A stretch of DNA of 29,414 nt from a virus: IMG/VR virus record IMGVR_UViG_3300032217_000716, positions 1 through 29,414 of that record. One strand, 5' to 3'. This document shows positions 13,482 through 29,414 of this stretch, one piece after another; positions within the stretch are counted from its first letter, which is position 1, and every line of letters starts with the position of its first letter. Made by a program: the position numbers and the translations under genes. The notes under the pieces are model-generated. The model saw only the letters and a program-made list of their open reading frames with translations. It was not told the origin of the DNA and did no database searches.

Positions 13482-14332
13482 ATATACTTTATGGTTATGG
13501 GTTTCCATTTGAACCACAACATTCTTCCTGCTCTAATCGTAAACCAAAGAATTTTAGATGGGAATTTGCACCACATGGTCCATTAGATCATCTGGTATTA
13601 ATCGATAATGCCATTCAGCACTATAACTTAATTCCTGTTACTGTTAAAAATTTATATGGATGGGTATGTGAATCTAGATCAATAGTAAAAGACACATCAA
13701 CTTTTTTAAGTTGGAATTTTGCTGATCTAGAAAAAAGATTCAAGAAAATCTTTGTTTCTGATAAACAACTTGCAAGTTTTTCCCCAGTATTTCAATACTG
13801 TCCATCTGGAAGTAATTTACCTTGGATTCCTGATACTGAATATGGTGTATATTCAAAAACAAAACTAACCAGCATGGTTGCATCTGCTAAACAAATGACT
13901 AAAGGTCATATGATTCGTCATCAATATGCAGATAGGTTTAAACAACATTTAGATTTATTTGGTGGTGCATGTGGTTCACCTCGGCTACCAGATACAGATC
14001 CAACTCGTCCGTGGATGAGCAAAATGTATGGTCTAAAAGACTATATGTTTTCTGTTGTTGTTGAAAATGATTTCTATGACAACTATTATACGGAAAAGAT
14101 AACTGATTGTTTTGCAACTGGAACTATACCTGTGTATTTGGGAAGCCCAACAATAGGCGATGTTTTTAATATGGATGGTATCATCCAATTAGATTCTAAT
14201 TTTGATATTACTATGTTAACAGAAGAATTGTATAAATCTAAATTAGATGCAGTGCATGACAATTTAAACAGAGTGATAAATTTAGCATCTGCGGATGATA
14301 AGTTATATCAATTGATACAGCATTTACTATAA
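13478..14332 (+). CDS. GT10 (alpha-1,3-fucosyltransferase-like) glycosyltransferase
   Basis: 284 aa with a GTG start at 13478 preceded by GGAGG at 13466-13470; no in-frame ATG is better placed. YMFSVVVENDFYDNYYTEKI (from residue 189), then IPVYLGSP, is the GT10 nucleotide-sugar signature seen in alpha-1,3/1,4-fucosyltransferases, including bacterial LPS fucosyltransferases. The family moves fucose (or a related sugar) from GDP-sugar to GlcNAc-containing acceptors. No GDP-fucose synthesis gene is in the window, so the donor would come from the host or from genes elsewhere. The gene overlaps the preceding stop by 4 bases. A TATAAATA late-promoter match covers its stop codon. Confidence 0.88.
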   Translation: MNILYGYGFPFEPQHSSCSNRKPKNFRWEFAPHGPLDHLVLIDNAIQHYNLIPVTVKNLYGWVCESRSIVKDTSTFLSWNFADLEKRFKKIFVSDKQLASFSPVFQYCPSGSNLPWIPDTEYGVYSKTKLTSMVASAKQMTKGHMIRHQYADRFKQHLDLFGGACGSPRLPDTDPTRPWMSKMYGLKDYMFSVVVENDFYDNYYTEKITDCFATGTIPVYLGSPTIGDVFNMDGIIQLDSNFDITMLTEELYKSKLDAVHDNLNRVINLASADDKLYQLIQHLL

Positions 14333-14335
14333 ATA
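14328..14335 (+). promoter_or_regulatory. Late promoter, exact TATAAATA
   Basis: Eight of eight bases match the T4 late promoter read by gp55. It overlaps the TAA stop (14330-14332) of the gene before and lies 23 bases upstream of the FkbM start. The expected transcription start is about 14341. Confidence 0.65.
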
Positions 14336-14354
14336 AAATAAAGGATAATTTTAT
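14333..14354 (+). promoter_or_regulatory. AT hairpin with the ribosome binding site in its loop
   Basis: ATAAAAT (14333-14339) pairs with ATTTTAT (14348-14354). The 8-base loop holds AAAGGA, the binding site of the gene at 14358. The 5' arm lies at or before the predicted late start, so only read-through RNA could form it. An all-AT stem is weak. Confidence 0.4.
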
Positions 14355-14357
14355 ATT

Positions 14358-14906
14358 ATGAATCAAACAAATTTTAAATCACAAATTGGTCAAGATCAAG
14401 TTGTACTACAAATAATAGGTGAAAAACAAAATGGAACATTTGTTGATATTGGATGCTTTGAACCATTAAAAATAAGCAACACATTTTTCTTTGAAACCGA
14501 GTTAAATTGGACTGGAATTGGTGTTGATATCCAAGATTATATTGGAAGTAATGGAGAGACTTGGAAATCACACAGACCAAAAACTAAGCATGTTCTATCA
14601 GATGCTTTAATTATTGATTATATCAAATTATTTGAAGAAAATAATATGCCAGAAACTATTGATTATTTGTCTTTAGATTTAGAACCACCTGAACTGACTC
14701 TTGAATGCTTGATGAAAATTCCTTTTCATAAGTATAAATTCAATGTAATAACATTTGAGACAGATGAATATAGAGAAGGTGGACAGCAACGAGTAGATAT
14801 CAGCAGGGCACATTTGGCGAAATATGGTTATAAATTTGTTGGTTGCATGAATCGACAAGATGATGTTTATGTGCATAATGATTTTAAATCTACATTAATA
14901 GCATGA
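14358..14906 (+). CDS. FkbM-family methyltransferase
   Basis: 182 aa. It starts with the family opening SQIGQDQVVLQII, then GTFVDIGCFEPLKISNTFFFE (26-46), the SAM motif I with the family's conserved P and N. WTGIGVDIQ (acidic end of strand 2) and YLSLDLEPPE (about 103-112) follow. FkbM proteins are O-methyltransferases commonly found in polysaccharide and LPS gene clusters, where they cap sugars. It is slightly shorter than typical members (about 200-280 aa) but all visible core motifs are present. It overlaps the next gene by 4 bases. Confidence 0.87.
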   Translation: MNQTNFKSQIGQDQVVLQIIGEKQNGTFVDIGCFEPLKISNTFFFETELNWTGIGVDIQDYIGSNGETWKSHRPKTKHVLSDALIIDYIKLFEENNMPETIDYLSLDLEPPELTLECLMKIPFHKYKFNVITFETDEYREGGQQRVDISRAHLAKYGYKFVGCMNRQDDVYVHNDFKSTLIA

Positions 14907-15589
14907 AGTGGTCTTTTATAATATCTTATTTGGATGGTATTTACTTAGATAAAATTATAGATTCGATTAAAAACCAAACGAATTTAACAAAAAGCAAATT
15001 TGAAATTATATTAGTTGGTCCAAATAATGAATCTTTAGAAAAAAATAAATCTAAGGTAAATTATAATATTGTATTTGAAGAAACCATAGTTCCTGGCTGG
15101 ATTACTATGAAGAAGAATCTAGGCGTACAAAATGCAAAATATGAAAATGTTTGCGTTATGCATGATTATATTGCTCTGTGTGAAAATTGGTATACTGGTT
15201 ATCTACAGTTTGGTGATGATTGGGATGTTTGTTCAAATCCTATTAGAACTACAAAAGGAAATCGATATTGGGATTGGATTACATTAAACCGACCAATAGA
15301 ATATATTTCATACAATGATTTATCTCAAACTAAAACAAACATGTATGTTGGCGGTTCATATATGTGTGTAAAACGAAAGTTTATGTTAGAGAATCCACTT
15401 GACTATAGACGAGTATGGGGACAGGGAGAAGATGTAGAGTGGGCTTACAGATGTAAAGATAAATGGAATTACACACTCAATACATTTTCTGTAGTTAGAC
15501 TATTAAAAGACAAAGAAATAACAATACCAGATCCATCAACAGATCCAAATAAAAATGTGAATTATAATACTTTCAAGGTGCAAACATGA
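14903..15589 (+). CDS. Glycosyltransferase family 2-like protein
   Basis: 228 aa. It has a GT-A start WSFIISYLDG, ILVGPNNES strand, and MHDYIALCENWY at 86-97, where the usual DxD is replaced by HDY. GGSYMCVKRKFML and VWGQGEDVEWAYR (ED about residue 175) follow, the latter typical of the GT2 catalytic base region. The gene is strongly AT-rich (12 GC of 60 bases at 15001-15060). It starts at an ATGA overlap with the FkbM gene and ends in another with the GT25 gene. Donor and acceptor are unknown. Confidence 0.8.
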   Translation: MKWSFIISYLDGIYLDKIIDSIKNQTNLTKSKFEIILVGPNNESLEKNKSKVNYNIVFEETIVPGWITMKKNLGVQNAKYENVCVMHDYIALCENWYTGYLQFGDDWDVCSNPIRTTKGNRYWDWITLNRPIEYISYNDLSQTKTNMYVGGSYMCVKRKFMLENPLDYRRVWGQGEDVEWAYRCKDKWNYTLNTFSVVRLLKDKEITIPDPSTDPNKNVNYNTFKVQT

Positions 15590-16341
15590 ATATAGCAGTA
15601 AAAGTAATAAGTAGAAAAACTTCAAATAGAAGATTACTAATAGAAAAACACTTAAACGATAAACAAATTTCTTTTTGTTTTTTTGATGCAGCAGATAAAT
15701 CAAACATTACATGGTCAGATACATTATTTAAATTTAATGATCTAACTCTTAAATTAAAAACTGACAGTTTGGTATTTGATTCATTCGCTAAGAGAAAATT
15801 ATTAAAGATTGGAGAAGTTGGTTGTTTCTTTAGCCATTATACTTTATGGAAAGCACTAATTAATAGTGATGTTGATTCATTTCTAATTTTAGAAGATGAT
15901 GCATCTCTTATGTTTGATAAAACTGAATTGGATAAATTTTGTAAAACTGAATTTCCAGAAGAAATTGATATGATTTTATGTCAATCAGTTGCACCTAATT
16001 TTCCAAATGGTAAAAGAAAGTTTCTAAGTATAACAGATGCACTAACTGTAAAGATGCAACCTGGCGTTTTGGATTGGGAAACAACGGAAGGAACTACTGG
16101 TTATATCGTTACTAAAAGCGGAGCAGATAAATTAGTAAAATTAGTTGAAGAATACCAACTGTTTAATCCAGTAGATTGTTTCATAACTCGTGTAATTGCC
16201 CGATCAAATTTTACAACATATCTTTGCCCAAATTATCTTCAAGTTGGTATGGGTGAGTATTGGAAAGATACAGAGATTCATTATAATAAAGAAGATGGCA
16301 AAACAACCTCAATTGAGGGGATAGTATTTAAATATGAGTAA
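15586..16341 (+). CDS. Glycosyltransferase family 25-like protein (LPS-type)
   Basis: 251 aa. KIGEVGCFFSHYTLWKAL (74-91), then FLILEDDASLMF (99-110), is the hallmark of GT25, which includes Lgt/Lpx-type beta-galactosyltransferases of lipooligosaccharide. TTEGTTGYIVTKSGADKL further on matches the family's Gly-Tyr segment. No membrane segment is visible. It shares a 4-base overlap with the previous gene and an 8-base overlap (ATGAGTAA) with the next. Confidence 0.87.
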   Translation: MNIAVKVISRKTSNRRLLIEKHLNDKQISFCFFDAADKSNITWSDTLFKFNDLTLKLKTDSLVFDSFAKRKLLKIGEVGCFFSHYTLWKALINSDVDSFLILEDDASLMFDKTELDKFCKTEFPEEIDMILCQSVAPNFPNGKRKFLSITDALTVKMQPGVLDWETTEGTTGYIVTKSGADKLVKLVEEYQLFNPVDCFITRVIARSNFTTYLCPNYLQVGMGEYWKDTEIHYNKEDGKTTSIEGIVFKYE

Positions 16342-17092
16342 AATTGTAATTGGTATATTAAGTTATAATAATCCATCTTATACTGATAGACTTTATTTTA
16401 ATTTAAAATCTGTTTTGAAAACCGAGTGTGATATTATCATATTTGATAATGGTTCGGATATTGATAAAATTTCACAATTTACTACTCATAGAATAGAAAA
16501 CAATTGCAGAATGACTTGTGGTTTTAATCACATCATACAAGCTGCAATGAATTCAAATACTAATTTAGAGTATATTTGGTTTTTCACAAATGATTGTTTT
16601 TTCGAAACATCAATTGATCCTCTACACAGTATGATTTCTTTTTTTGAAAAATATCCTAAAATAGGCATATTACATCCTGCTTTGTCAAAAAATGTTAAAG
16701 TTTGTTACGATATAAAACACATCGATAGAGGTGGTATTAAAATTGTATGTGAATATGATTTTGTGTGTCCTATGTTTTCTAGAAAGGCACTAGATGCAAT
16801 AGGAAATGAATTTACTAAAGAATTTTATTTTGGATGGGGAATCGATCATGAAAGTTCATATTTAGTAAGAAAAAATGGAATGAAAGTGGCAATTAATCAT
16901 GATTTAGTTGTGATGCACAACACATCAACAACATATAATTTAGGATTAGATTCTGAGTTTCAAAACTCGAATGAGTACTATACTGCAGCTGGATTGCAGA
17001 TGATAGAAGTTATGACTAAAAAATATGGGCATAATTGGAATCAACTTTTTACACAAAATTATAATGAAGAAGTAGGCATTTGGTATGAATAA
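16334..17092 (+). CDS. GT2-like glycosyltransferase, paralogue A
   Basis: 252 aa. IVIGILSYNNPSY then IIIFDNGSD gives the GT2 N-terminal strand and nucleotide-binding acid. IWFFTNDCFFE replaces the DxD. FYFGWGIDHESSYLVRKNG resembles the catalytic-base and helix region. The ending MTKKYGHNWNQLF is echoed in the proteins at 17085 and 19573, which also share CRMTxGFN or HP-x-x segments, so these are diverged duplicates. The 8-base overlaps at both ends (ATGAGTAA, ATGAATAA) have the same form. Specificity is unknown. Confidence 0.8.
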   Translation: MSKIVIGILSYNNPSYTDRLYFNLKSVLKTECDIIIFDNGSDIDKISQFTTHRIENNCRMTCGFNHIIQAAMNSNTNLEYIWFFTNDCFFETSIDPLHSMISFFEKYPKIGILHPALSKNVKVCYDIKHIDRGGIKIVCEYDFVCPMFSRKALDAIGNEFTKEFYFGWGIDHESSYLVRKNGMKVAINHDLVVMHNTSTTYNLGLDSEFQNSNEYYTAAGLQMIEVMTKKYGHNWNQLFTQNYNEEVGIWYE

Positions 17093-17909
17093 AGTATGTG
17101 TATTACTCGTTAGTCATAATTTTCCGCAGTTAACTGATTCTCTTTGCGAGAATATTATAAAATTAACTAAAGGAGTCGATTACGATCTTCATGTAATTGA
17201 AACTGGTTCCGGCTTAGATAATTGTTCAAAGTATGCAACACTATGGATCAAAGATGGTTGTAGGATGACTCGTGGTTTTAATTTCCTAAAATCATATGCA
17301 GATGCACTTCTTAAATCAAAAACAGGTGAAAAATATGATGCATATATGTTATTTGTGAATGATGCAAAATTTATTGACAATACAGATATGATTAGTATTT
17401 TATATGATGAGATGAAGAAAAATCCAGATTGTGGACAAATCCATCCATATCAGAGTAATATGCATTCGGGATTCCGTCGTTTATGCAAAATGACAGATAA
17501 TGAAACTCGAAAAGAAAGTTTTTCTGAAATAGTTTGTCCTATGATATCAGCACAGGCATGGAATGTATGTGGTGAAAACTTCCTAGACAATAGATTTTTC
17601 TATGGGTGGGGATTAGACTATGATATGCCATATCAATTACATAAAAATGGATTCAGAACTTATATCACCGACAAAGTTGGTGTGTTTCATGATCCATTTA
17701 CTTCGTACAAGAATAAAGAAATAACCAGAGAGAAACTAGAAGTAAATCAATTTGCAACTTTGGCTAGACAAAACATGAAGGAAGGGTTTGTTGCCAAGTA
17801 TGGCGAAGATTGGATGCAAGTCTTAATGGATGCAGTACCATCGGATGTATCTAAAGAGGCATTGTATATGTGGTTAGCAAATAACGATGGATTCAGAGGT
17901 AGAGCATGA
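17085..17909 (+). CDS. GT2-like glycosyltransferase, paralogue B
   Basis: 274 aa. It parallels the preceding gene: VCVLLVSHNFPQLTDSL, then a nucleotide-binding strand DLHVIETGSG. DGCRMTRGFNFLKS, MLFVNDAKF (in the DxD position), CGQIHPYQSN and FFYGWGLDYDMPYQLHKNG follow. The C-terminal AKYGEDWMQVL is the shared tail of this paralogue set, followed by about 30 extra residues. It overlaps the HAD gene by 4 bases. It is likely a cytoplasmic sugar transferase acting on a glycan built by its neighbours. Confidence 0.78.
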   Translation: MNKVCVLLVSHNFPQLTDSLCENIIKLTKGVDYDLHVIETGSGLDNCSKYATLWIKDGCRMTRGFNFLKSYADALLKSKTGEKYDAYMLFVNDAKFIDNTDMISILYDEMKKNPDCGQIHPYQSNMHSGFRRLCKMTDNETRKESFSEIVCPMISAQAWNVCGENFLDNRFFYGWGLDYDMPYQLHKNGFRTYITDKVGVFHDPFTSYKNKEITREKLEVNQFATLARQNMKEGFVAKYGEDWMQVLMDAVPSDVSKEALYMWLANNDGFRGRA

Positions 17910-18514
17910 ATAAAGCAATTTTATTTGATTTAGATGGAGTTTTAGTAGATGCATGTGATTGGCATTATGAAGCATTAAATGCAGCATTAATCATGAAGCA
18001 AAAGCAACCAATTCCTAGAGATCTTCATCTTACAGTTTATAACGGATTACCAACACATGTGAAATTAAACATGTTGGGAATATCAGATGATGAGGCAAAA
18101 GATATAAACCGACTAAAGCAATTATATACTTTGTCTACAATCACAGAACATGCAAAAATTATGCCAGAAAAGATAGAAATGCATAAACACATTAAAGCAT
18201 GTGGTTATAAAATTGCATGTGTTACTAATTCTATACGAGAAACTGCGAAAGAAATGCTTAAAGCAACTGGTCAATTAGAATACATGGATTTACTGATTAC
18301 CAATGAAGATGTAAAAAATAATAAACCAGCACCAGATTGTTACAATATTGCGATTGAAAAATTAAATGCAGATCCAAATCAAACCATTATTGTAGAAGAT
18401 TCCCCAAAAGGAATAGAGGCAGCCAAAGCATCAGAAGTTGGTAAATGTTTTATAGTTAAAAATACTACTGAAGTTAATCTAAATATAATTAGTTCACTTT
18501 TAAGGAATTCTTGA
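17906..18514 (+). CDS. HAD-superfamily phosphatase/phosphomutase (beta-phosphoglucomutase-like)
   Basis: 202 aa with all HAD motifs: DLDGVLVD (nucleophile D8, general acid D10), VTNS (motif II), NNKPAPDCY (motif III Lys), and VEDSPKGIEAA (motif IV acids). The helical cap between motifs I and II is of the C1 type found in beta-phosphoglucomutase and sugar-phosphate phosphatases. It stands directly before a sugar nucleotidyltransferase, so processing of a sugar phosphate for activation is the natural reading. The substrate cannot be told from sequence. Confidence 0.9.
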   Translation: MNKAILFDLDGVLVDACDWHYEALNAALIMKQKQPIPRDLHLTVYNGLPTHVKLNMLGISDDEAKDINRLKQLYTLSTITEHAKIMPEKIEMHKHIKACGYKIACVTNSIRETAKEMLKATGQLEYMDLLITNEDVKNNKPAPDCYNIAIEKLNADPNQTIIVEDSPKGIEAAKASEVGKCFIVKNTTEVNLNIISSLLRNS

Positions 18515-18516
18515 TT

Positions 18517-19233
18517 ATGAAAATTCTGATACCAATGGCCGGTGAAGGTAGTAGATTTGCAAAAGAAGGTTATACTTTTCCAAAACCACTTATAGATGTA
18601 AACGGAAAACCAATGATTCAAGTTGTAACTGAAAACTTGGACTTTGATGCAACCTATATTTTTTTGGTTCGTAAACAACATCTAGAGAAGTATAGTGGAT
18701 TGCGTACCACACTTGATCGGATTACAAACGGTAAGTATAAAGTTGTAGAAGTTGATGGTCTAACGGAAGGTGCTGCTTGCACCACTCTATTAGCAAAAGA
18801 TCTGATCAATGACGATGAAGAACTTTTAATTGCAAATTCAGATCAGGTCATAGAATACTCTGCTGAAAATTTTAAACTACTAAAATCACTGACACCAGCC
18901 GATGGAATAATTTTTACATTTAACGCACTACATCCAAAGTGGTCGTTTGTTCGTGTTAATTCCCGTGGAGTTATTACCGAATTACAGGAAAAGAATCCAA
19001 TATCAAATATTGCAACATGCGGTATATATTGGTATCGAAAAGGATCAGATTATGTCAAGTATGCAGAGCAGATGATACAGAAAAACATCAGAGTAAATGG
19101 TGAGTTTTATGTTGCTCCTGTGTATAATGAATACATTTCAGATGGAAAGATGTTAATTCCATTTTATGTGAGTAAAATGCATGGAATCGGTACACCTGAA
19201 GACTTGAATACATATTTAAAATCAATATCATAA
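18517..19233 (+). CDS. Sugar-phosphate nucleotidyltransferase
   Basis: 238 aa from ATG 18517 (an in-frame TTG six bases earlier is ignored; AAGGA lies about 10 bases before the ATG). ILIPMAGEGSRFAKEGYTFP, then KPLIDVNGKPM, is the G-x-G-x-R...PKPL nucleotide-binding signature of the NTP_transferase family (RmlA/GalU-like). LIANSDQVIEY holds the metal-binding Asp, and NGEFYVAPVYNEYI and GIGTPEDL are family C-terminal motifs. It would make an NDP-sugar (or NDP-alditol) for the surrounding transferases. It is followed by a cupin that overlaps by one base (TAATG). Confidence 0.9.
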   Translation: MKILIPMAGEGSRFAKEGYTFPKPLIDVNGKPMIQVVTENLDFDATYIFLVRKQHLEKYSGLRTTLDRITNGKYKVVEVDGLTEGAACTTLLAKDLINDDEELLIANSDQVIEYSAENFKLLKSLTPADGIIFTFNALHPKWSFVRVNSRGVITELQEKNPISNIATCGIYWYRKGSDYVKYAEQMIQKNIRVNGEFYVAPVYNEYISDGKMLIPFYVSKMHGIGTPEDLNTYLKSIS

Positions 19234-19559
19234 TGTTTAAAAACAACAATCTAAATCTTTTCATTAAAGGATGGTTAGTTGGTGATTTTTTACCATCGTT
19301 ATTTCAATCTAAGGATATAGAAATTGGAATAAAGCGGTACAAAAAGGGAGATAAAGATCCAAAACATTATCATAAAGAAACAACAGAATATACTGTTGTT
19401 GTCAGTGGTGTTGTGTTTATGTTAGGAAAGATTTGGAGACAAGATGACATCATTTACATCCCACCAAATGTTGAAAATGAATTTGAATGTATTGAAGATG
19501 CATGTTTGTTGGTTATAAAAACACCATCACTCGTTGACGATAAATATATGTGTAAATAA
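19233..19559 (+). CDS. Cupin-fold protein, possible sugar epimerase/isomerase or binding protein
   Basis: 108 aa. Cupin motif 1 reads PKHYHKETTEYTVVVSG (H45, H47, E52), close to the G-x5-H-x-H-x3,4-E pattern. Motif 2 reads DDIIYIPPNVENEF, where the usual histidine after PP-x-x is replaced (N/E). Metal binding would therefore be altered or weak. Small cupins in surface-polysaccharide clusters include sugar isomerases and proteins of unknown function. One-base overlap with the nucleotidyltransferase suggests the same pathway. Confidence 0.8.
   Translation: MFKNNNLNLFIKGWLVGDFLPSLFQSKDIEIGIKRYKKGDKDPKHYHKETTEYTVVVSGVVFMLGKIWRQDDIIYIPPNVENEFECIEDACLLVIKTPSLVDDKYMCK
19539..19546 (+). promoter_or_regulatory. 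Candidate late promoter GATAAATA
   Basis: Seven of eight to TATAAATA, inside the 3' end of the cupin gene and 27 bases before the ATG at 19573. A second near-match, GTAAATA, lies at 19552-19558. Confidence 0.45.
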
Positions 19560-19570
19560 AAGGATTTATA
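19551..19570 (+). promoter_or_regulatory. Hairpin with the ribosome binding site in its loop
   Basis: TGTAAAT (19551-19557) pairs with ATTTATA (19564-19570), including one G-T pair. The loop AAAAGG is the main part of the binding site for the gene at 19573. It is a weak AT-rich stem. Confidence 0.35.
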
Positions 19571-19572
19571 TT

Positions 19573-20331
19573 ATGTTGCCAAAAGTTGGTATTGCTCTTC
19601 TTAATTACAATCTTCCAGTAGAAACAGATTATGCCTATGAGAACTTGGTTAAGAATTTAACTAAGACAAACTATGAAATCTGTGTTCTTGATAATGCTTC
19701 AGATAAAGCACCACCATCGAAACATACTACAATCAAGACATTAGTTAACGGAAGAACAATGGGTGCCATTCTTATGGCTGCTCATTACTTTAATCGTAAG
19801 CAAGATGTTAAATACATCTTCTTCTTCCACAATGATATGACATTTAGATCTGAACCAGATATTCTTCATGATATGGTGGTTCATATGGAAGACAATCCAA
19901 ATATAGCAGTAATCCATCCAGCACTAAATCAGGATGCAACTCCAGTTTATATTGGTGATCGATTTACCGTTTATGATCCAAACAACAATGGGGGATATCG
20001 AAGAGTTATGCCAAATCAACATGGTATGATTACTATGGACGATACTTCACCAATTTTAGTTCGTAAAAGTGATTGGAATCTTGTTGGTGGTCAAGACCCA
20101 AGACTGAGCAGATGTTATGGTTCTGGTAAAGATTTCTATACTCAATTACACAAGGCTGGTAAAGAAATTTACATGTATGATGGTGTAGTAATTAATCATC
20201 ATGGACAATACACATACCGTAAAAATGTTGGTGATGAAACATATTCTAATTTAGATAAAGAAGCATATGTAGAAATGGAATGGGTAATGTCTGAGAAATA
20301 TGGATCAAATTGGAAAGAATTGTTTAGATGA
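19573..20331 (+). CDS. GT2-like glycosyltransferase, paralogue C
   Basis: 252 aa from ATG 19573 with AAAAGGA upstream; an in-frame TTG at 19534 inside the cupin gene is disregarded. VGIALLNYNLPVETDYA, then ICVLDNASD, is the GT2 nucleotide-binding start. IFFFHNDMTFRSE stands in the DxD position, and IAVIHPALNQDATPVY and SPILVRKSDW follow. The ending MSEKYGSNWKELF matches paralogues A and B. It is less AT-rich than the genes around 15000. It overlaps the next gene by 4 bases. Confidence 0.8.
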   Translation: MLPKVGIALLNYNLPVETDYAYENLVKNLTKTNYEICVLDNASDKAPPSKHTTIKTLVNGRTMGAILMAAHYFNRKQDVKYIFFFHNDMTFRSEPDILHDMVVHMEDNPNIAVIHPALNQDATPVYIGDRFTVYDPNNNGGYRRVMPNQHGMITMDDTSPILVRKSDWNLVGGQDPRLSRCYGSGKDFYTQLHKAGKEIYMYDGVVINHHGQYTYRKNVGDETYSNLDKEAYVEMEWVMSEKYGSNWKELFR

Positions 20332-21113
20332 ACGATTTAACAATAGTAATACCTATTGGTGTTTCATCTCCCGGAACACCTGTAGTAAAATATCTAAAAT
20401 GGTGTGTTGAATCTTTAAGAAATCAACAGACGACCTATTCATATAAAGTAGTGTTTGCTGCTGATAATAATCTTCCATCTGAAGCCGCTCATGTATTGGC
20501 TGAATCTGGATTTGATATTAGTCTATATGAACCATATTACTTTATGCGTCGTGGTGGAATATGGAAGAAGATCTATACCGAATGGGAAAAATATGAATCA
20601 AAGTATATCGCATTTTCTCATTATGACGATATGTGGTCTTTGGATAAAATACAAAATCAAATTTCTTTCATGAAATCAAACGAATTGGAATTATCTTGGA
20701 GTAAAGTTCAAGTTATAAATGAAACTAATGGTGTAGTTAGTCCTGATATCTGTAAGCATTCAATTCTTTCTAAAGACACAATAAGAACTGGGTCTTATGC
20801 TTTTTCCCATTCTAGTATGATGAAGAAAGATGCTTGGCTCAATTCTGGTATAGTGGATAAAGTAGAAAAAGGTTCAGCCATTTATGAACAATTACAGTTC
20901 ATATATTCACATAAATTGAAAGGAGCAAAAGATGAAAGTTCTATATTTTACCACAGAACACATCTTAATAGTGTTTCTTGTCAATTTAGTACTGAAAAAG
21001 ATTTCATGGTAGAGCAAAGAAAAATTGCAGACTATTCTATACAGCAAGTATGGCAAGATGCAGAAGAACTAAATGTTAATTCAATCATAGCAGAGGTTGA
21101 AAATACATTATGA
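20328..21113 (+). CDS. GT2-like glycosyltransferase with YDD motif
   Basis: 261 aa. LTIVIPIGVSSPG, CVESLRNQQTTYSYKVVFAAD and YIAFSHYDDMWSLDKI give a regular GT2 layout with an intact DD metal site. FSHSSMMKKDAWLNSG is the post-DxD acceptor loop region. It is not obviously a member of the KYG-tail paralogue set. It sits between paralogue C and the phosphodiesterase-like gene with 4-base overlaps on both sides. Substrates are unknown. Confidence 0.82.
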   Translation: MNDLTIVIPIGVSSPGTPVVKYLKWCVESLRNQQTTYSYKVVFAADNNLPSEAAHVLAESGFDISLYEPYYFMRRGGIWKKIYTEWEKYESKYIAFSHYDDMWSLDKIQNQISFMKSNELELSWSKVQVINETNGVVSPDICKHSILSKDTIRTGSYAFSHSSMMKKDAWLNSGIVDKVEKGSAIYEQLQFIYSHKLKGAKDESSIFYHRTHLNSVSCQFSTEKDFMVEQRKIADYSIQQVWQDAEELNVNSIIAEVENTL

Positions 21114-21547
21114 AAATTATAAGTCATCGTGCAAATCTTAATGGGTCTGATTTAAAAAGAGAAAATCAACAATGGGCAATTGATGAATGTATATCTCTTG
21201 GTTTTGATGTTGAGATTGATTTATGGTTGCAAGATAACAAATTGTATCTTGGACATGATAAACCAGAAACTAATATAAGTAAATACTTTTTGTTTGCTAT
21301 CTCTGATTTTGCATGGATACACGCAAAAAACTTTGAAGCAGTTTCTTGGCTTAATTCAAACCAAAACTATAACTTAAATTGGTTCTGGCATGAGAGCGAC
21401 AAAATGACATTAACCAGTAAAAAGATACCGTGGTGTTACCCAAATAATTATATTGAAACTGGTGTTACTGTTGTTTTAGAACAAAAACTAATTCCAGTAA
21501 ATGTTTATGGTGTTTGCACAGATTACCCACAAATTTGGAATAAATAA
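21110..21547 (+). CDS. Short GDPD-like phosphodiesterase
   Basis: 145 aa. IISHRANLNGSDLKREN (H6, R7, E19) and GFDVEIDLWLQDNKLYLGHD (E35, D37, H49) reproduce the start and metal/catalytic residues of the glycerophosphodiester phosphodiesterase TIM-barrel family. The family is normally about 240 aa or more, so the protein is a reduced version lacking part of the barrel or with very short loops. It might cleave or recognise glycerophosphate-linked sugars. The context in a glycan block fits this, but activity is uncertain. Confidence 0.75.
   Translation: MKIISHRANLNGSDLKRENQQWAIDECISLGFDVEIDLWLQDNKLYLGHDKPETNISKYFLFAISDFAWIHAKNFEAVSWLNSNQNYNLNWFWHESDKMTLTSKKIPWCYPNNYIETGVTVVLEQKLIPVNVYGVCTDYPQIWNK
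21539..21546 (+). promoter_or_regulatory. Candidate late promoter AATAAATA
   Basis: Seven of eight to TATAAATA, overlapping the TAA stop at 21545-21547 and 20 bases before the ATG at 21566. AT-rich pairing of 21544-21549 with 21559-21564 would place AAAAGGA in a loop, as at two other late-type starts. Confidence 0.45.
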
Positions 21548-21565
21548 AGTAAAAGGATTTTTATC

Positions 21566-22771
21566 ATGTCAACTATTTGTCTTTCAATGATCGTAAAAAA
21601 CGAAACGCACATTATCAAAGAATGCTTTGATACAATTTATGACCAGATTGATTACTGGGTAATCGTTGACACTGGTTCCACTGATGGAACCCAAGAACTA
21701 ATCAAAAATTATTTTGCAGAGAAGGGTATACCCGGAGAACTCATTGAGCGTCCGTGGGTAAGTTTCGGACACAATCGATCCGAAGCCCTTCAATTATGTG
21801 ATGGTAAAGCCGATTATATCTTCATGATCGATGCAGACGATTATGTAGAAGGTAAGTTCCCACTAGATCAAATCAAAGATGCAGATGGTTATGCGGTTTT
21901 GATGGGTCGCGGAGATTTCTCTTGGTGGAGAACTCAGATTTTTAAAGCCAATTCTGGTTGGAAGTATTTTGGTGTTCTACACGAATATCCATCCATAGAG
22001 GGAAAGACACCAAACATTCAGCGTTTAGAAAATGGCTACAGAATAGTTGCTAGAACTATGGGTGCAAGAAATGTTGGTATTGATCCGGTAGAGAAGTATA
22101 CCAGAGATGCTGAACTTCTAGAAAAGGCACTTATTGATGAGCCAGGAAATATTCGCTACCAGTTCTATCTGGGGCAAAGTTATTTTGATTCTCAACAGTG
22201 GGAAAAGGCAGAAGTTGCATATACTAAAAGAGTAGAGATGGGTGGATGGCCAGAAGAAATATATTACTCAATCTATAGAATTGCTATGTGTCGTGCATTA
22301 CAGAATAAACCTTGGCTTGAGATTCAACAGGGATTCTTAGATGCATACAATGCTCGTCCTACTAGGGCAGAACCATTTTACCAAATTGCTAGAATATATC
22401 GTCTAAACGGTAAACCTGCTCTATCTTATGCTTTTGCTCGTATGGCTGCTGAAATTCCATATCCAAAGGATGATATTCTATTCATCGATAATGATGTATA
22501 TCGTTATGGTATTTTGGATGAAATCGGAAGTACTGCTTTCTATGCTGGAAAGATTCAGGAAGGTTATAACGCTTGCAAGGCTCTACTTGATCGTAAACTC
22601 ATACCAGAAAAAGAACTGGAAAGAGTAAAGAATAATTTAAATGAATATGAAAAAATTATTACTGACATAAAAATCAAACAATTAGAGTCTAAAGCAGAAA
22701 AAAAGATTGAAAAGAAGCAAGAACAGAAGAAAGTCAAAGCCTTCAAGCAAAAAGAGCGAGTTAGCCGATAA
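21566..22771 (+). CDS. GT2 glycosyltransferase fused to a TPR-like region
   Basis: 401 aa. Residues 1-160 are a classic GT2 domain: ICLSMIVKNETHIIKECFDT, WVIVDTGSTDGT, then MIDADDYVEG with an intact D89-x-D91-D92, and a GVLHEYP acceptor segment. Residues about 180-340 show TPR-like helix pairs (RYQFYLGQSYFDSQQWEKAE, EPFYQIARIYRLNGKPALSY). The last 45 residues are Lys/Glu/Gln-rich and probably coiled coil. Such GT2-TPR proteins act on peptide-linked or growing glycans in bacteria and large viruses; here the acceptor is unknown. It is the last gene before the fibre genes. Confidence 0.87.
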   Translation: MSTICLSMIVKNETHIIKECFDTIYDQIDYWVIVDTGSTDGTQELIKNYFAEKGIPGELIERPWVSFGHNRSEALQLCDGKADYIFMIDADDYVEGKFPLDQIKDADGYAVLMGRGDFSWWRTQIFKANSGWKYFGVLHEYPSIEGKTPNIQRLENGYRIVARTMGARNVGIDPVEKYTRDAELLEKALIDEPGNIRYQFYLGQSYFDSQQWEKAEVAYTKRVEMGGWPEEIYYSIYRIAMCRALQNKPWLEIQQGFLDAYNARPTRAEPFYQIARIYRLNGKPALSYAFARMAAEIPYPKDDILFIDNDVYRYGILDEIGSTAFYAGKIQEGYNACKALLDRKLIPEKELERVKNNLNEYEKIITDIKIKQLESKAEKKIEKKQEQKKVKAFKQKERVSR

Positions 22772-23203: not shown

Positions 23204-23322
23204 AGATAGAACTAACAGAAAAGTATAAAGTAGTAACCAGTAAACAGGTTTACTCTTCTGGTAAGAAAGTTCTATCACTTACTATACAGAATAAATCTAG
23301 GAAGAAAATTCTTCACCCATAA
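23200..23322 (+). CDS. 40-aa basic ORF between virion genes
   Basis: Starts at an ATGA overlap with the preceding gene and ends with TAA whose last A begins the next ATG (TAATG). Sequence: MKIELTEKYKVVTSKQVYSS, then KKVLSLTIQNKSRKKILHP. It is strongly basic with alternating hydrophobic residues, suggesting a beta hairpin pair. No family is recognised. The perfect fit between two genes, with coupling at both ends, is the evidence that it is translated. Confidence 0.6.
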   Translation: MKIELTEKYKVVTSKQVYSSGKKVLSLTIQNKSRKKILHP

Positions 23323-24989
23323 TGAAAAGTTTTTTTGATTATAACAAGAATGAACTCAAGGAAGAAATAAAGGGTTCTTCCAAGATTATTGTTAGCAAAC
23401 CAATTGCTGGCGATAAGTTTGTTCTTTGCAATAATCAGTTTGGTTTGGATGCCGGAACAGTTGTTACAATAACAGAAGAGGTTGGAGATATACAGCAAGT
23501 CGGTTTTGGTCTATCTGTAGTTAATATAAACACACCAAAAGGGATACTAACACTACAGGGATCGACTAAACTAATTCAAGAATCTTTTAATCCATATGTT
23601 GAACCTGTAGTTCTTGAAGAAGAACCAAAGGTTGTTATCGTGAATAAAACAATTCAACAGAGAATTGTAGAAGAAGGAACCCCCGGTGAAAGGGGTCCAA
23701 AGGGCGAACAAGGTCCTCGTGGATTTCAGGGTTCTGTTGGTGATCGTGGAGCAAAGGGAGACAAGGGAGATCAAGGAGAGAAGGGTGATACTGGTGAACA
23801 AGGTATTCCCGGAATTCAAGGTCCTCAGGGAGAACGCGGAGAGAAGGGCGAGCAAGGAGAAAAGGGTGATGTTGGTCCTCAAGGACTACAAGGTAAACCC
23901 GGTTCTTCTGGTAAGCAAGGCAAGGATGGAAAGCCTGGTTCGCAAGGACCAAAGGGTGATCGTGGAGAACCGGGACTCAAAGGCGAACCCGGCTCCACTG
24001 GCGCGACCGGAGCAAAAGGTGAAAAAGGAGATAAAGGTGAAAATGGGCTTGCTGGCAAAGATGGTAAGAATGGTAAAGATGGAAAAGCCGGAAAAGATGG
24101 TAAAGATGGAACTCCCGGAAACCCCGGAAAGCAAGGAGAGAAGGGTGATCAAGGAGAACCAGGACCCTCTGGTATTATCTCTGCATCATATCCCCTTGTA
24201 TATGACGCAAAAGCGCGTTCTTTAAGTTTTGATTCTACTAAGATTGAGAAGTTAATTACTTCTCTATCTGGAACAAAGGGAACATTTGATCTTACTTCTC
24301 TTGGTGGTGGTGCTGTTGGTATACAATTTAATAAAACGCAGTTACTAAAATCGGTAAATGACATTAACTTTACTGGTTCTGGTGTCAATGTAGTTCGTAG
24401 GGGTAAAGGTGTAGAAGTTCAGATTTCTGGTGGTGGTGGCAGTGGTTCTACTGGACCAACAGGTCCCACCGGCCCTGCTGGTTCTGGAATCAGTGGTCCT
24501 TATATTACGACATTCAATGGATTAAGTGGTGGTATTACTCTTAGTTTTGGTCAGGGTATAACCGGAACTTATAAGGGAAACACTTTAACTATTGGATTGA
24601 ATTATATAAATGCCGGGCAAACAATGGCAAATGCTGCTCCCGGTAATTTAGATTTTATTGCGTATCAAGCAAAAAGTGGTGCTATGCGTATTGTTAACTT
24701 CACTACGCTATTTGGTGCATTTAATGCACCATTATACACAGCACCACCGGGCGAAACAATTGAGGCTCCTGGACCCGGATCTTACTTTCTTCAGCAATCT
24801 GGATCTTCAAACTATTCTGTAGGTTTTACTGGTGCTGCACAAACTATCAGAGCAGCAGGATTTACTGAGGGATTAACTGCACCAAATTTGGCAGATATAG
24901 TAGCAGGAGATCGTTGGTTTAGAACCGATGAAGGTATTTTATACACCGCAATTACAGGTGTTTCTGGTTACATATGGGTAGAACTTTAA
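23322..24989 (+). CDS. Collagen-like phage fibre protein
   Basis: 555 aa. Residues 1-118 form a globular head (IIVSKPIAGDKFVLCNNQFG). Residues 119-283 are 55 uninterrupted Gly-X-Y triplets rich in KGE/KGD and GER/GEQ, charge pairs known to stabilise collagen helices without hydroxyproline. A second short run, GSTGPTGPTGPAGSG, follows later. The part after the main run includes YITTFNGLSGGITLS, a module shared with the next protein. The C-terminus ADIVAGDRWFRTDEGILYTA, then WVEL, is a small fibre-tip-like module. It should form a trimeric rod as a tail or whisker fibre. Its stop overlaps a TAATAAATA element. Confidence 0.9.
   Translation: MKSFFDYNKNELKEEIKGSSKIIVSKPIAGDKFVLCNNQFGLDAGTVVTITEEVGDIQQVGFGLSVVNINTPKGILTLQGSTKLIQESFNPYVEPVVLEEEPKVVIVNKTIQQRIVEEGTPGERGPKGEQGPRGFQGSVGDRGAKGDKGDQGEKGDTGEQGIPGIQGPQGERGEKGEQGEKGDVGPQGLQGKPGSSGKQGKDGKPGSQGPKGDRGEPGLKGEPGSTGATGAKGEKGDKGENGLAGKDGKNGKDGKAGKDGKDGTPGNPGKQGEKGDQGEPGPSGIISASYPLVYDAKARSLSFDSTKIEKLITSLSGTKGTFDLTSLGGGAVGIQFNKTQLLKSVNDINFTGSGVNVVRRGKGVEVQISGGGGSGSTGPTGPTGPAGSGISGPYITTFNGLSGGITLSFGQGITGTYKGNTLTIGLNYINAGQTMANAAPGNLDFIAYQAKSGAMRIVNFTTLFGAFNAPLYTAPPGETIEAPGPGSYFLQQSGSSNYSVGFTGAAQTIRAAGFTEGLTAPNLADIVAGDRWFRTDEGILYTAITGVSGYIWVEL
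23676..24170 (+). repeat. Collagen Gly-X-Y repeat tract
   Basis: 55 consecutive triplets encoding residues 119-283 of the collagen-like protein, with no interruption of the glycine register. DNA-level repetition is moderate because codons vary. Confidence 0.92.
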
Positions 24990-25004: not shown

Positions 25005-28000
25005 ATGGCAATAAATTTTCCTAACAATCCAACTGAAGGCGATTCATACACATTTAACGGTATAACATGGATATGGAATGGTTATGCATGGGATAAAGTA
25101 TCTTCCGGTATAACTGGTGGGTATGTTAGCAATCTTAATGGACTAAGTGGTGGTGTTACACTATCTGCCGGAAGTGGTATTACCCTAACCTCTTCAGATA
25201 ATATAATAACTATTTCGTCATTTGGTGGTGGAACTGGTGCTGGTATTTCATCTGTAAATAGTGTTTCTGGTGGTGAAACCGGAAATGTTAATGTGTATCA
25301 ATTAATCAACAATACAAAGATAGTTACACTTGATACTGATGGTGTATTAACATTACCTCTGGGTGGAAGAATCGGTGAAACCGGAAGTGATATGATATTG
25401 ACCCCACCAAATGGTTTGACTGGTCAAGGACTTGTAATTCGTCCAACTAGTATATTTGGTATAACAGCAAGCGGTTATATTGTAAATGATCAAAATCTAA
25501 TTATAACCATAACAAATCTTAATTATTCAATTGCTAATTATTCTGTTCAGTTTGAATATGAAATAACAGGAATAGCAGATCCAGCACAATTAGGTTTAGC
25601 AGGTTTAACCGGAGTTTTTACCGAATTACTTCCTTATGGTGAACTAAATCAAACTGCAACAGTTACTTTACCAATTCCTGCAAACTCAACAGCAACTACA
25701 TTTACTTTAACTGTTGTTGGTGTTACTGCCGGTTCTTGGGGTGCTAATGGTACACAAATTACTGTTACTGATAATGGTGCACACGCTGTAGAAAATCATC
25801 ATATACATCTAGTTTCAGCAGATCCAACAACAGTTGATCTTTATTTGGGTGAAGATGATCATTATGTAAAAGTTGAGAAAAATAATGGTAATGTTATTGT
25901 TGGAACAGATTCCGATACTTATAACTGGGTATTTGGTACTACTGGTATACTTTTATTGCCTGGTGATGCTAACCTAGGTGAATTATCTAATGGTGAAATA
26001 TATTTGGGAGTAAATTCACCAAATAAAATAGTTGGTTTAAGCAATTATAACACTTCCGCCGCATATCTTACAGAAAATAATTTTAGTTTAACATTTCCAA
26101 ATTATAGTTGGAATTTTGATAAAAACTTAACGATTCCTTTTGATGGAGATATCCAACGAAATAATAAATCTGTTATAATAAATCAAGATGTATGGAGATA
26201 TGTTTCTGCTGGTGGTTTATTTACTGTAGCGATTAAAACTGATGGAACTTTATGGTCTTGTGGAATTAACACAAATTCCGAATGTGGAAATCCAAATGCT
26301 AATAGATCAATTTTTACGATAGTTGATGATAATCCAGTCTGGAGTGTGGTAGATTGTGGTTTTGATCATACCCTTGCACTCAAAAATGATGGAACTCTGT
26401 GGGTATGGGGAAGTGATCAATATAATCAATGTGCTAGTAATGGAGATCCAGTAAATACACCAACACAGATTCTTATGAATGATGGTGGTTCTGAAACTTG
26501 GAGTGCCATAGCGGCTGGTAATGGTTTTAGTTTGGCTATTAGAAGTAATAATGGTAGACAATTGTATGGATGGGGACGTAACAATAGAGGACAGTTAGGT
26601 TTAAATGATACAGATAATCGTTCAGTCCCTACTCTGATTGATGATCAGGAGTATTGGACTCGTATTAGTGCTGGTAATAATCATAGTATGGCACTCAAGG
26701 GTGTAATTGGTCCTTATGAATTGTGTATTTGGGGTGGAAATTCACACGGACAACTTGGTGATGGAACTATAGATGATATAATTACTCCTTATAATTTAAC
26801 TTCTGATACTGGCATTTATTTTACAAAAATCGGTGCAGGAGATGAATATAGTATTGCACTCGATGATTCTAATCTATTATACGGTTGGGGCAGAAATGAT
26901 TTAGGTCAATGTGGTTTAGGTGTAACTGGTGATACAAATACACCAACTCAGTCTGGTAATGCTTCATATAGACAAATAAAAGCAAGTAAATTTGCAACAT
27001 CTTATGGAATTGCTAATGATTCTAGTATATGGGGCTGGGGTGATAATTCATATGGACAGTTAGCATACAATCCAACACAAGAACCTTTTTTTCTTACTCA
27101 TAGACAAATTGGTTATTCCCCTATAACTAGTGCCGAAAATGTACCGGGAACTATAGCGGGTGGTTATGTACACACCGTAATGCTTTATGTCACAGACAAA
27201 AACATTTACGATTCTAATATTAGATCATTATTATATTCATGCGGATATAACTTCGAAGGACAACTAGGAACTGGTGATCCTACACAAAACAACAATAGAT
27301 GGTATTTTGAACAAGTATTTGGTGGTAATGTTACTGTACCTTGTTTAACAAACACGGATGGCACAGATGGTACAGAATACAAAGTTTCATTAGAAAGTAA
27401 CGGATCTGTTCTTCTACCAACACTCACAGTACCTCTCAGTGACAATTCTAGTCCAATTGGTACTGGACAAACATTAAAATTTGCTAGCCCACAACAAGCA
27501 ATAATTTATGGACCAGAATCAACTTCTGGATCATTTAATGCTCAAAGATTAATAATCCAAGGCGCGCCTGGATACACCGGAACCTCTGGCGAAGGTGGTG
27601 ACATTTATATGTGGGCAGGTCCTGGTGGAAATGTCGATGGTAATGGTGGTGATATAAAAGTTCGTGCTGGTCGTGGTTCTGGAAATGGTTCGGGTGGATA
27701 TTTAAATTTACAAGCAGGAGATTCCTTTGGTGGTTCTGGAGCAGGTGGTTGGATTAATATTGAAAGTGGTCAAACTAGCACAGGAACTGGTGGCGGATAT
27801 ATCAGATTAAATGCTAGAGATGGTGGCAATATTAATTTGCGGACATACAATAATGGTACTAAAGATTGGGTATTTGATGCTGATGGTGCATTAACATTAC
27901 CAAATGGTGCAAAACTTGGTGATTTTTATAATGCTAGTGGTATAGATTTAGTTGCACCAACTGGCACAGGTGGTTATGCTGGAATAGTCAGTAATGATTT

Positions 28001-29414
28001 GAATCAATTTGTTGCTGCTTCTGATACTGAAGTTCAAATTGGAACAGATTTTAATGGATTTGGTTATACTTGGATATTTGATAAGAGTGGTGTATTATCA
28101 TTACCATCTGGTGGTTATATTAATGGTCTTGAAATAGGAACTGATGTTCAAGCATATAGTTCAGTTCTTGATTCTGTTGCTGGTGGAACTTATATTTCTT
28201 CATTCAATGGACTGATAGGTGGAGTAACCCTAGCAGCCGGATCGAATATCACATTGACTCCGGTGGGCAATACAATTACGATTTCGTCTAGCGGAGGTGG
28301 TAATACTGGTTCTGGTGCAACAGGAGCCACCGGAGCCAAAGGTGATACAGGTGCTACCGGATCTACTGGTGTCACGGGAGCAACAGGTGCAACAGGTTCT
28401 CAAGGTATTCAAGGAAATACTGGTGCCACTGGTCCCGTTGATTCTTATGTAATTTCTTTCAATGGTCTTACTGGTGCTGTAACCGGAGTCACCACAGGAA
28501 CTGCAAATAACTTTGTTGCATTGCAAACCTTTAGTGCTGGTATTTCGGCTTCAGGTGGAATTACATTTAATGGCGGCAAGGTATGGACATCTGCTAATGA
28601 CGGCGCAGGTTCAGGATTGGATGCTGATGCCGTAAGAGGAGTGAGTGGTGATCGTCTTCTTGAAGAAATTCAAACAGGACTCCTGTACGGTGGTGTCCTT
28701 ACAATCAATTCAGGAAATACAGCAGCAGTGGATGTTTCCGCAGGAGCAGGAATCATTGTCACGGTAAACGCTAACACAGGAGGATATCCTGCACCTAGTC
28801 TACAAACCATACAATGGACTGCCAAGACAGGTGTTACTCTTGCAGGAATGACATCATCGGACTTTACTTTCTTCCGTATTGATTCATCAGGAAATCTACA
28901 GCAGTCGTCTAGCAATTTCTCGCAAACCGAATACCTGAACAGCGTAATAATTGGTAATGCGGTTCACCAATCACGGGCTTATGTGAACCGAGTTCATTAC
29001 CACCCAATCGTAGCCTACGCTTCAAGCGCACAATACGAAACATTTATTCGTTACTTTGGTGGACTCAAGGTAGACGGTTATGTGATGAGTGGATACGGAA
29101 CCACAGGCGGCATACAGCACACTACAGGTACTGCGTTTGCTTTGGGCGCAAACATGGATGTTGACCCCAACAATCCAAGTCTTGTCACAGACAGTTCTTC
29201 TGTGCCTGTGCAACAACTATTCTACCTGTACAGAAATGCTGGTGGTACTTATAGAACAGATCCTACTGCCCGCACTACCGTTAATTTTGGAAATTACGAT
29301 GACGGGGACGGAACTCTTGGAAATGTCGGCAACCAAAGTTGGTCTATACAGCGAGTCTACAAGATTCCGGGACTAAACAATGCGCTGTACATCTACTACG
29401 GCACAGCAGTCTAC
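25005..29414 (+). CDS. Giant modular tail fibre / adhesin with RCC1-type propeller (3' truncated by window edge)
   Basis: At least 1470 aa, open to the last base. The ATG at 25005 has TAGGAA upstream. N-terminus FPNNPTEGDSYTFNGITWIW resembles other fibre modules. Then come an NGLSGGVTL module (about 38-75) and repeats of the W-x-F-x-x-x-G-x-L-x-LP-x-G type (for example TLDTDGVLTLPLGGRIG, YNWVFGTTGILLLPG, DWVFDADGALTLPNG, YTWIFDKSGVLSLPSGG). Seven RCC1-like repeats span about 395-765, and tandem Gly-rich repeats about 864-947. Further on are another FNGL module (about 1062), 14 collagen triplets (1104-1145), and a third FNGL module. The C-terminal region has the fibre motif GLDADAVRGVSGDRLLEEI. 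No enzyme motif is seen. It is likely the long receptor-binding fibre. GC rises towards the 3' end. Confidence 0.92.
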   Translation, partial: MAINFPNNPTEGDSYTFNGITWIWNGYAWDKVSSGITGGYVSNLNGLSGGVTLSAGSGITLTSSDNIITISSFGGGTGAGISSVNSVSGGETGNVNVYQLINNTKIVTLDTDGVLTLPLGGRIGETGSDMILTPPNGLTGQGLVIRPTSIFGITASGYIVNDQNLIITITNLNYSIANYSVQFEYEITGIADPAQLGLAGLTGVFTELLPYGELNQTATVTLPIPANSTATTFTLTVVGVTAGSWGANGTQITVTDNGAHAVENHHIHLVSADPTTVDLYLGEDDHYVKVEKNNGNVIVGTDSDTYNWVFGTTGILLLPGDANLGELSNGEIYLGVNSPNKIVGLSNYNTSAAYLTENNFSLTFPNYSWNFDKNLTIPFDGDIQRNNKSVIINQDVWRYVSAGGLFTVAIKTDGTLWSCGINTNSECGNPNANRSIFTIVDDNPVWSVVDCGFDHTLALKNDGTLWVWGSDQYNQCASNGDPVNTPTQILMNDGGSETWSAIAAGNGFSLAIRSNNGRQLYGWGRNNRGQLGLNDTDNRSVPTLIDDQEYWTRISAGNNHSMALKGVIGPYELCIWGGNSHGQLGDGTIDDIITPYNLTSDTGIYFTKIGAGDEYSIALDDSNLLYGWGRNDLGQCGLGVTGDTNTPTQSGNASYRQIKASKFATSYGIANDSSIWGWGDNSYGQLAYNPTQEPFFLTHRQIGYSPITSAENVPGTIAGGYVHTVMLYVTDKNIYDSNIRSLLYSCGYNFEGQLGTGDPTQNNNRWYFEQVFGGNVTVPCLTNTDGTDGTEYKVSLESNGSVLLPTLTVPLSDNSSPIGTGQTLKFASPQQAIIYGPESTSGSFNAQRLIIQGAPGYTGTSGEGGDIYMWAGPGGNVDGNGGDIKVRAGRGSGNGSGGYLNLQAGDSFGGSGAGGWINIESGQTSTGTGGGYIRLNARDGGNINLRTYNNGTKDWVFDADGALTLPNGAKLGDFYNASGIDLVAPTGTGGYAGIVSNDLNQFVAASDTEVQIGTDFNGFGYTWIFDKSGVLSLPSGGYINGLEIGTDVQAYSSVLDSVAGGTYISSFNGLIGGVTLAAGSNITLTPVGNTITISSSGGGNTGSGATGATGAKGDTGATGSTGVTGATGATGSQGIQGNTGATGPVDSYVISFNGLTGAVTGVTTGTANNFVALQTFSAGISASGGITFNGGKVWTSANDGAGSGLDADAVRGVSGDRLLEEIQTGLLYGGVLTINSGNTAAVDVSAGAGIIVTVNANTGGYPAPSLQTIQWTAKTGVTLAGMTSSDFTFFRIDSSGNLQQSSSNFSQTEYLNSVIIGNAVHQSRAYVNRVHYHPIVAYASSAQYETFIRYFGGLKVDGYVMSGYGTTGGIQHTTGTAFALGANMDVDPNNPSLVTDSSSVPVQQLFYLYRNAGGTYRTDPTARTTVNFGNYDDGDGTLGNVGNQSWSIQRVYKIPGLNNALYIYYGTAVY
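26187..27299 (+). repeat. Seven RCC1-type repeats (predicted seven-bladed beta-propeller)
   Basis: Seven copies of the pattern W-x-x-I-x-A-G-x-x-H-(T/S)-x-A-L-...-L-(Y/W)-x-W-G-x-N-x-x-G-Q-L-G. Examples: VVDCGFDHTLALKNDGTLWV, ISAGNNHSMALKG then CIWGGNSHGQLGDG, IGAGDEYSIALDD then YGWGRNDLGQCG. Seven is the number of blades in RCC1. Confidence 0.85.
27594..27849 (+). repeat. Tandem glycine-rich repeats of about 16 residues
   Basis: Five to six units beginning GG(D/Y/W)(I/L): GGDIYMWAGPGGNVDGN, GGDIKVRAGRGSGNGS, GGYLNLQAGDSFGGSGA, GGWINIESGQTSTGTG, GGYIRLNARDG, GNINLR. Alternating strand residues and AG turns suggest a beta-roll or polyglycine-type stack. Confidence 0.8.
28314..28439 (+). repeat. 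Short collagen Gly-X-Y tract in the long fibre
   Basis: 14 uninterrupted triplets (GAT GAT GAK GDT GAT GST GVT GAT GAT GSQ GIQ GNT GAT GPV). They are mostly Gly-Ala-Thr and lack the charge pairs of the upstream collagen protein. Confidence 0.85.

Follow-up and report, generated by a model that had tools for sequence, protein, structure and literature searches.

The fibre gene and its surroundings

The window, by which we mean the whole stretch of DNA that was analysed, is a complete IMG/VR virus record of 29,414 bases. Its upstream genes are T4-like and encode a gp41-like helicase, a late sigma factor, SbcCD-like gp46/47 proteins, a sliding clamp and a clamp loader (gp44/45-like), the clamp loader being closest (56-59%) to those of Pelagibacter and cyanobacterial T4-like phages. 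Judged by these genes, the record belongs to a T4-like phage. A threonine dehydratase-like gene of the PALP fold is also carried by this T4-like phage (5444-6211). A cluster of glycosyltransferase genes (13478-22771), with GT2, GT10 fucosyltransferase-like and GT25-like members, precedes the fibre genes. The last glycosyltransferase of this cluster and the ORF that follows it have homologues in L042, a locus with a fibre bearing a related distal module.

Two fibre-like ORFs adjoin at the 3' side of the window, both on the + strand. The first is collagen-rich and encodes 555 aa (23322..24989). The second, the fibre ORF considered here (25005..29414), is uninterrupted for 1470 codons and still open where the record stops on the 3' side, so that the C-terminus of the fibre lies beyond it; relatives with the same distal module (L038 and L039) extend approximately 470 to 790 residues further. 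The fibre ORF begins with the motif FPNNPTEGDSYTFNGITWIWNGYAW (25005..25100, +), which is common to the starts of many IMG/VR fibre-like ORFs and is probably the attachment end. A pre-propeller fibre module (aa 100-385; 25302..26159, +) has 41% identity over 257 residues to L031, and a post-propeller module (aa 793-960; 27381..27884, +) has 65-68% identity to L066 and L067. These are followed by a collagen-like stretch (aa 1103-1143, GATGATGAKGDTG...; 28311..28433, +), matched by Pfam over 41 residues with E=0.001, under the Pfam cut-off, and by the distal module (aa 1145-1470; 28437..29414, +), which has 84-94% identity to L038 and L039 and 66% to L040. The N-terminus and the shaft modules recur in other phage fibres; together with the collagen-like stretch, they support the identification of this ORF as a phage fibre.

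RCC1 matches were sought in the records of L031, L066, L067, L038 and L039, including the 146-kb record of L038, and none was found. As the flanking modules thus occur elsewhere without RCC1, the propeller is an optional module in this family of fibres. The L040 record encodes a separate RCC1-containing protein of 581 aa, whose C-terminal GWVYCDGKNGTPN resembles, by eye, a tail-collar motif. In the L067 fibre (L067:1-3912), a stretch upstream of the shared module has weak NCBIfam matches, below the cut-off, to a delta-60 repeat (E=7.6e-10) and an SBBP propeller lipoprotein (E=1.1e-8) and no PDB or Pfam match; it is possibly a propeller of a different type, which we mention as a lead.

Seven RCC1 repeats and their predicted fold

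Between its two fibre modules, the ORF has seven RCC1 repeats at aa ~390-775. Seven segments are recognised by Pfam RCC1 (PF00415; E=1.3e-45 for the whole protein, 154 bits where 21.7 is the cut-off), and WD40_RLD (PF25390), the model of the RCC1-like domain, gives E=3.6e-62 (211 bits, cut-off 150). An HMM built separately from phage RCC1 repeats likewise finds exactly seven repeats, at aa 390-769 (26172-27311). At such E-values a chance origin of these sequence matches is excluded. Among PDB chains, phmmer matches the propeller to HERC2 (E=4.9e-39) and UVR8 (1e-36). All repeats lie on the + strand: repeat 1 at aa 390-442 (26172..26330), repeat 2 at aa 439-490 (26319..26474), repeat 3, the top-scoring Pfam repeat, at aa 493-546 (26481..26642), repeat 4 at aa 544-599 (26634..26801), repeat 5 at aa 599-651 (26799..26957) and repeat 6 at aa 648-701 (26946..27107). 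Repeat 7 (aa 716-769; 27150..27311) contains an insertion and has a lower model confidence.

The repeats differ from one another to an unusual degree. Their mean identity of 27% is the lowest among 162 phage RCC1 sets (median 60%) in a sample that is biased to consensus-like repeats and, with that caveat, would fit a ring that is old and specialised rather than newly amplified. All eight cysteines of the 1470-residue ORF fall within aa 419-780. Two replace the conserved W of LWxWG (C419 in repeat 1 and C746 in repeat 7) and three replace the L of GQLG (C427 in repeat 1, C476 in repeat 2 and C636 in repeat 5), while repeats 2 and 4 also contain C451 and C574. Of 1506 motif-matched repeats taken from other RCC1 proteins of phages, 46 (3%) have Cys at the W site and 4 (0.3%) at the L site; these repeats are not mutually independent and the figures serve as a contrast, not as a probability. 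Judged by this comparison, the substitutions are real and unusual.

For structure prediction, AlphaFold2 was supplied with aligned RCC1 domains of phages and was run on the propeller both with its flanks and as the domain alone. With flanks, 256 of 503 residues reached a pLDDT of at least 90, the flanks themselves being without resolved structure; the domain alone gave a pTM of 0.84 and a mean pLDDT of 82.9. The model has about 26 strands in the order that seven blades require. Foldseek aligned it over the full length of the seven-blade ring of UVR8 (4dnv/4dnw; TMq 0.76-0.77, TMt 0.81-0.83) and with other whole rings, namely RPGR (TMt 0.80), HERC1/2 (TMt 0.77-0.81) and human RCC1 (TMt 0.71). 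Because the alignments span entire seven-blade rings, the propeller is predicted to close as a ring whose topology is that of solved RCC1 structures, closure at blade 7 being of low confidence. Blade 7 has an insertion near aa 730-740 with lower confidence and its outermost, last strand is poorly predicted, so that the exact mode of ring closure is modelled with less certainty than the ring itself. In the alignment, stand-alone phage RCC1 proteins begin at the LWxWG strand and finish at the HTxAI strand. The domain in the fibre, by contrast, begins at the WxxVSAG strand and runs on beyond the LWxWG strand. The closing point therefore appears to be shifted, plausibly as an adaptation to the in-line position.

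The original prediction, made from the sequence, was of an RCC1-like propeller of exactly seven repeats inside a phage fibre, with Cys in place of W or L in several blades, and it proposed structure prediction of residues 390-770 as a check. The repeat searches, the cysteine positions and the AlphaFold2 and Foldseek results all agree with this description, with less certainty for blade 7.

RCC1 domains in other phages and their fusion to tail parts

The RCC1 domain is not new in phages, being common in databases and annotated there. An alignment-based scan of IMG/VR gave at least 589 confirmed RCC1 stretches among the matches listed, from which 80 loci were kept. Most of the phage RCC1 ORFs fetched, a sample biased to consensus-like repeats, are either stand-alone single rings (7-8 repeats, ~370-415 aa), which often occur as several successive genes, or RCC1-only arrays of up to 67 repeats. 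A role in fibres is therefore not the sole role of RCC1 in phages. One dockerin-annotated RCC1 protein (L191) comes from Aphanizomenon phage Yong-DA (ON073792.1), where it is surrounded by polysaccharide export, sugar transferase and methyltransferase genes; this entry, although named a phage, resembles bacterial DNA.

Where a phage RCC1 domain has a recognisable fusion partner, the partner is mostly a tail part. The L172 fibre has seven RCC1 repeats in mid-chain, matches long-tail-fibre families and has a Peptidase_S74 chaperone. L165:2-5812 and L166:3-3071 encode a string of RCC1 propellers with long collagen-like segments between them and a Peptidase_S74 chaperone at the end. In L095:1921-7539, an RCC1 array follows a 713-residue N-terminal part that matches phage baseplate-wedge families (E=4e-53). 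The RCC1 array of L079:2047-7677 is of the same kind, the baseplate-wedge match having been tested in L095. Other fusions are to a tail protein in L105 (E=2e-34) and to a tail fibre in L183 (E=8e-29). One frame, in L001 (IMGVR_UViG_3300032241_001347, record G009), has 8626 residues and ~70 RCC1 matches in a 39-kb record. A 1000-residue piece of this protein joins RCC1 to concanavalin-type lectin domains (Laminin_G_3). Gene order points in the same direction, as three RCC1 genes of S-SRM01 come after its baseplate and long-tail-fibre genes.

PollyC and SeaP2, two cultured phages of Pseudomonas, provide a further form. Their RCC1 gene comes after an internal virion protein or transglycosylase gene, and the protein has a T7-type tail-fibre N-terminus, an Ala-rich probable coiled coil (a helical shaft) and a C-terminal RCC1 head. 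The tail-fibre N-terminus is slightly under the cut-off in Pfam (E=6e-5) and matches PHROG tail families with E-values down to 3e-67. PollyC gp12 (L194:2085-4688) bears on PHROG 4219, a family filed as 'regulator of chromosome condensation' under DNA metabolism: up to residue 472, the PollyC protein aligns with this family (867 positions) over 1-456 with E=2e-256. As PHROG 4219 thus matches the T7-type tail-fibre N-terminal half of PollyC, it is by sequence a tail-fibre family, and its name and category look wrong. An RCC1-like protein of GAP32 has been found in virions by mass spectrometry (PMC5259590).

The occurrence of the repeat in other phage fibres, which was proposed at the outset as a check, is therefore seen in L172, L165, PollyC, SeaP2 and other tail fusions. 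A wide prior description of the same domain in related fibres had been named as grounds for setting the idea aside. The domain itself is indeed common and annotated in phages; however, in the open-access papers searched we found no description of RCC1 as a tail-fibre module, and the Littlefixvirus paper does not mention RCC1. The suggestion that the propeller is a captured host-surface module is not supported. Phage relatives of the propeller at 30-40% identity are abundant, whereas a narrow pattern-based scan of genome contigs gave four cellular relatives (33-41% identity over part of the domain), scattered among Paenibacillus, Clostridiales, Parcubacteria and Deltaproteobacteria. These relatives do not allow a donor to be named, and it is simpler to assume that the propeller descends from within the phage pool.

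The role of the propeller

We consider it probable that the window encodes a seven-blade RCC1-like propeller set in line in a fibre shaft, that the fibre is homotrimeric and associated with the tail of a T4-like phage, and that the propeller is exchangeable and binds the host surface. It would belong to a wider stock of such propellers, which phages join to their tail fibres and baseplates as exchangeable modules. The shaft of each chain would lead into the ring, which would be held sideways off the fibre axis, and the chain would then leave the ring for the next shaft module, such that three propellers are arranged around the axis as in the receptor-binding protein of phi11. The three-lobed protrusion that was originally predicted would follow if the fibre is a trimer, which is proposed from the 41-residue collagen-like match (E=0.001, sub-cut-off). 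During adsorption the exposed face of each propeller would contact a host glycan or surface protein, and the distal tip would make a second contact. The repeats, the ring fold as predicted, the mosaic flanks and the recurrent joining of RCC1 to tail parts in other phages come from the computations themselves, while the trimer, its place on the virion and the binding of a ligand are inferred; that the host surface is what the propeller binds seems likely. The fusion of phage RCC1 propellers to tail-fibre, baseplate and collagen/S74 parts makes the binding platform that was first proposed the best reading. The distal part of the fibre, some of which lies beyond the record, may nevertheless be the only receptor-binding part.

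It is unlikely that the propeller instead serves the shaft in a purely structural way, as a spacer, a hinge or a stabiliser, with no host binding. Its position in mid-shaft, far from the tip and followed by at least 700 residues, would suit such a role, and the strong divergence of its repeats (27% mean identity) could reflect selection for the fold alone. However, the related fibres L031, L066, L067 and L038 have no propeller, so the shaft does not need one, and in PollyC and SeaP2 RCC1 forms a terminal head. Docking of another virion or phage-encoded protein, such as an accessory adhesin or a lateral fibre, rather than direct contact with the host, we regard as improbable. Eukaryotic RCC1 rings are protein-protein platforms, as the titles of the Ran-RCC1, RPGR-PDE6D and HERC2 complex structures indicate, and the stand-alone RCC1 genes of S-SRM01 adjoin fibre genes; against this, no partner gene was identified in the window and the terminal propeller of PollyC argues for an outward-facing role.

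There is only a slight chance that the RCC1-fibre join is a chimera, made in metagenome assembly from two separate genes, one for a fibre and one for RCC1. Such an origin would fit the presence of the flanking modules elsewhere without RCC1 and the finding of no second copy of the exact propeller-in-fibre arrangement in two IMG/VR viral scans, but very near IMG/VR records may be left out of such scans, a single reading frame crosses both junctions without a stop, GC content has no sharp step at the junctions, and independent records (L172, L165/L166 and L157) have RCC1 inside a fibre chain. That the protein acts in the manner of RCC1 to regulate chromatin, the packing of DNA or nucleotide exchange is very unlikely, since the domain sits within a collagen-containing fibre chain, the PHROG 4219 protein matches tail-fibre families across its N-terminal half and bacteria are not known to have Ran. 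The PHROG names and category are in favour of such a function, as is the suggestion by the authors of the phAPEC6 study that an RCC1-type protein orders DNA in an inner body (PMC7247149).

Host-surface binding by an in-line propeller may be one instance of something broader. We lean slightly towards the view that RCC1 propellers are widespread, unrecognised and exchangeable receptor-binding modules of phage tails that have been misfiled as DNA or chromosome-condensation proteins, and that they take the forms of T7-type terminal heads, T4-type in-line platforms, collagen bead strings and baseplate fusions. At least 589 IMG/VR stretches match the RCC1 family search, while the family names point to chromatin or DNA; if these are tail adhesion modules, many host-range determinants of phages have been overlooked. 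PollyC and SeaP2 on Pseudomonas are a cultured system for a direct test, and the in-line arrangement illustrates how a shaft can carry a putative lateral binding platform besides its tip.

The fibre domain shares with the cellular proteins UVR8, RPGR, HERC1/2 and RCC1 (PF00415, PF25390) the seven repeats, the LWxWGxNxxGQLG signature and the seven-blade ring. It differs in being ~20-27% identical to them, in its location in a phage fibre and in the Cys at W and L sites; Ran nucleotide exchange by this propeller is implausible. The repeat family is also shared with known phage RCC1 proteins, including S-SRM01 gp335/337/344, GAP32 gp1 and its phAPEC6/121Q relatives, proteins of Clostridioides and Brevibacillus phages and PHROG 7220, 4219 and 16766. 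These often adjoin tail-fibre genes but, unlike the fibre domain, are mostly stand-alone or RCC1-only arrays, and within one protein their repeats resemble each other far more closely (median identity 60% versus 27%). The tail fibre of PollyC and Ppr_SeaP2 (PHROG 4219) likewise bears an RCC1 propeller, but as a C-terminal head behind a T7-type anchor and a probable helical shaft, whereas the propeller is in line here. The IMG/VR fibres L172 and L165 have seven-repeat propellers in line between fibre-repeat or collagen shaft segments, as in the window, but differ in their shaft repeats and terminal Peptidase_S74 chaperone, L165 being a string of propellers.

Among other propellers, a precedent for the proposed arrangement is phi11 Gp45, a receptor-binding protein of a Staphylococcus aureus phage. 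This protein is a trimer whose three propellers form a platform, with a tower and further domains after it; ligand binding by the propeller rests on modelling, soaking having been unsuccessful (PMC4901313). The Gp45 propeller has five blades rather than seven. PhiKZ gp131C, a putative phage receptor-binding protein, has a seven-blade propeller at its C-terminus, and in both cases the likeness does not imply RCC1 kinship. Finally, the eBAP3 fibres of eCIS belong to a contractile injection system rather than a phage and have a TNFR-like end, but they combine a propeller with a collagen-like shaft, as does the fibre in the window (PMC12923769).
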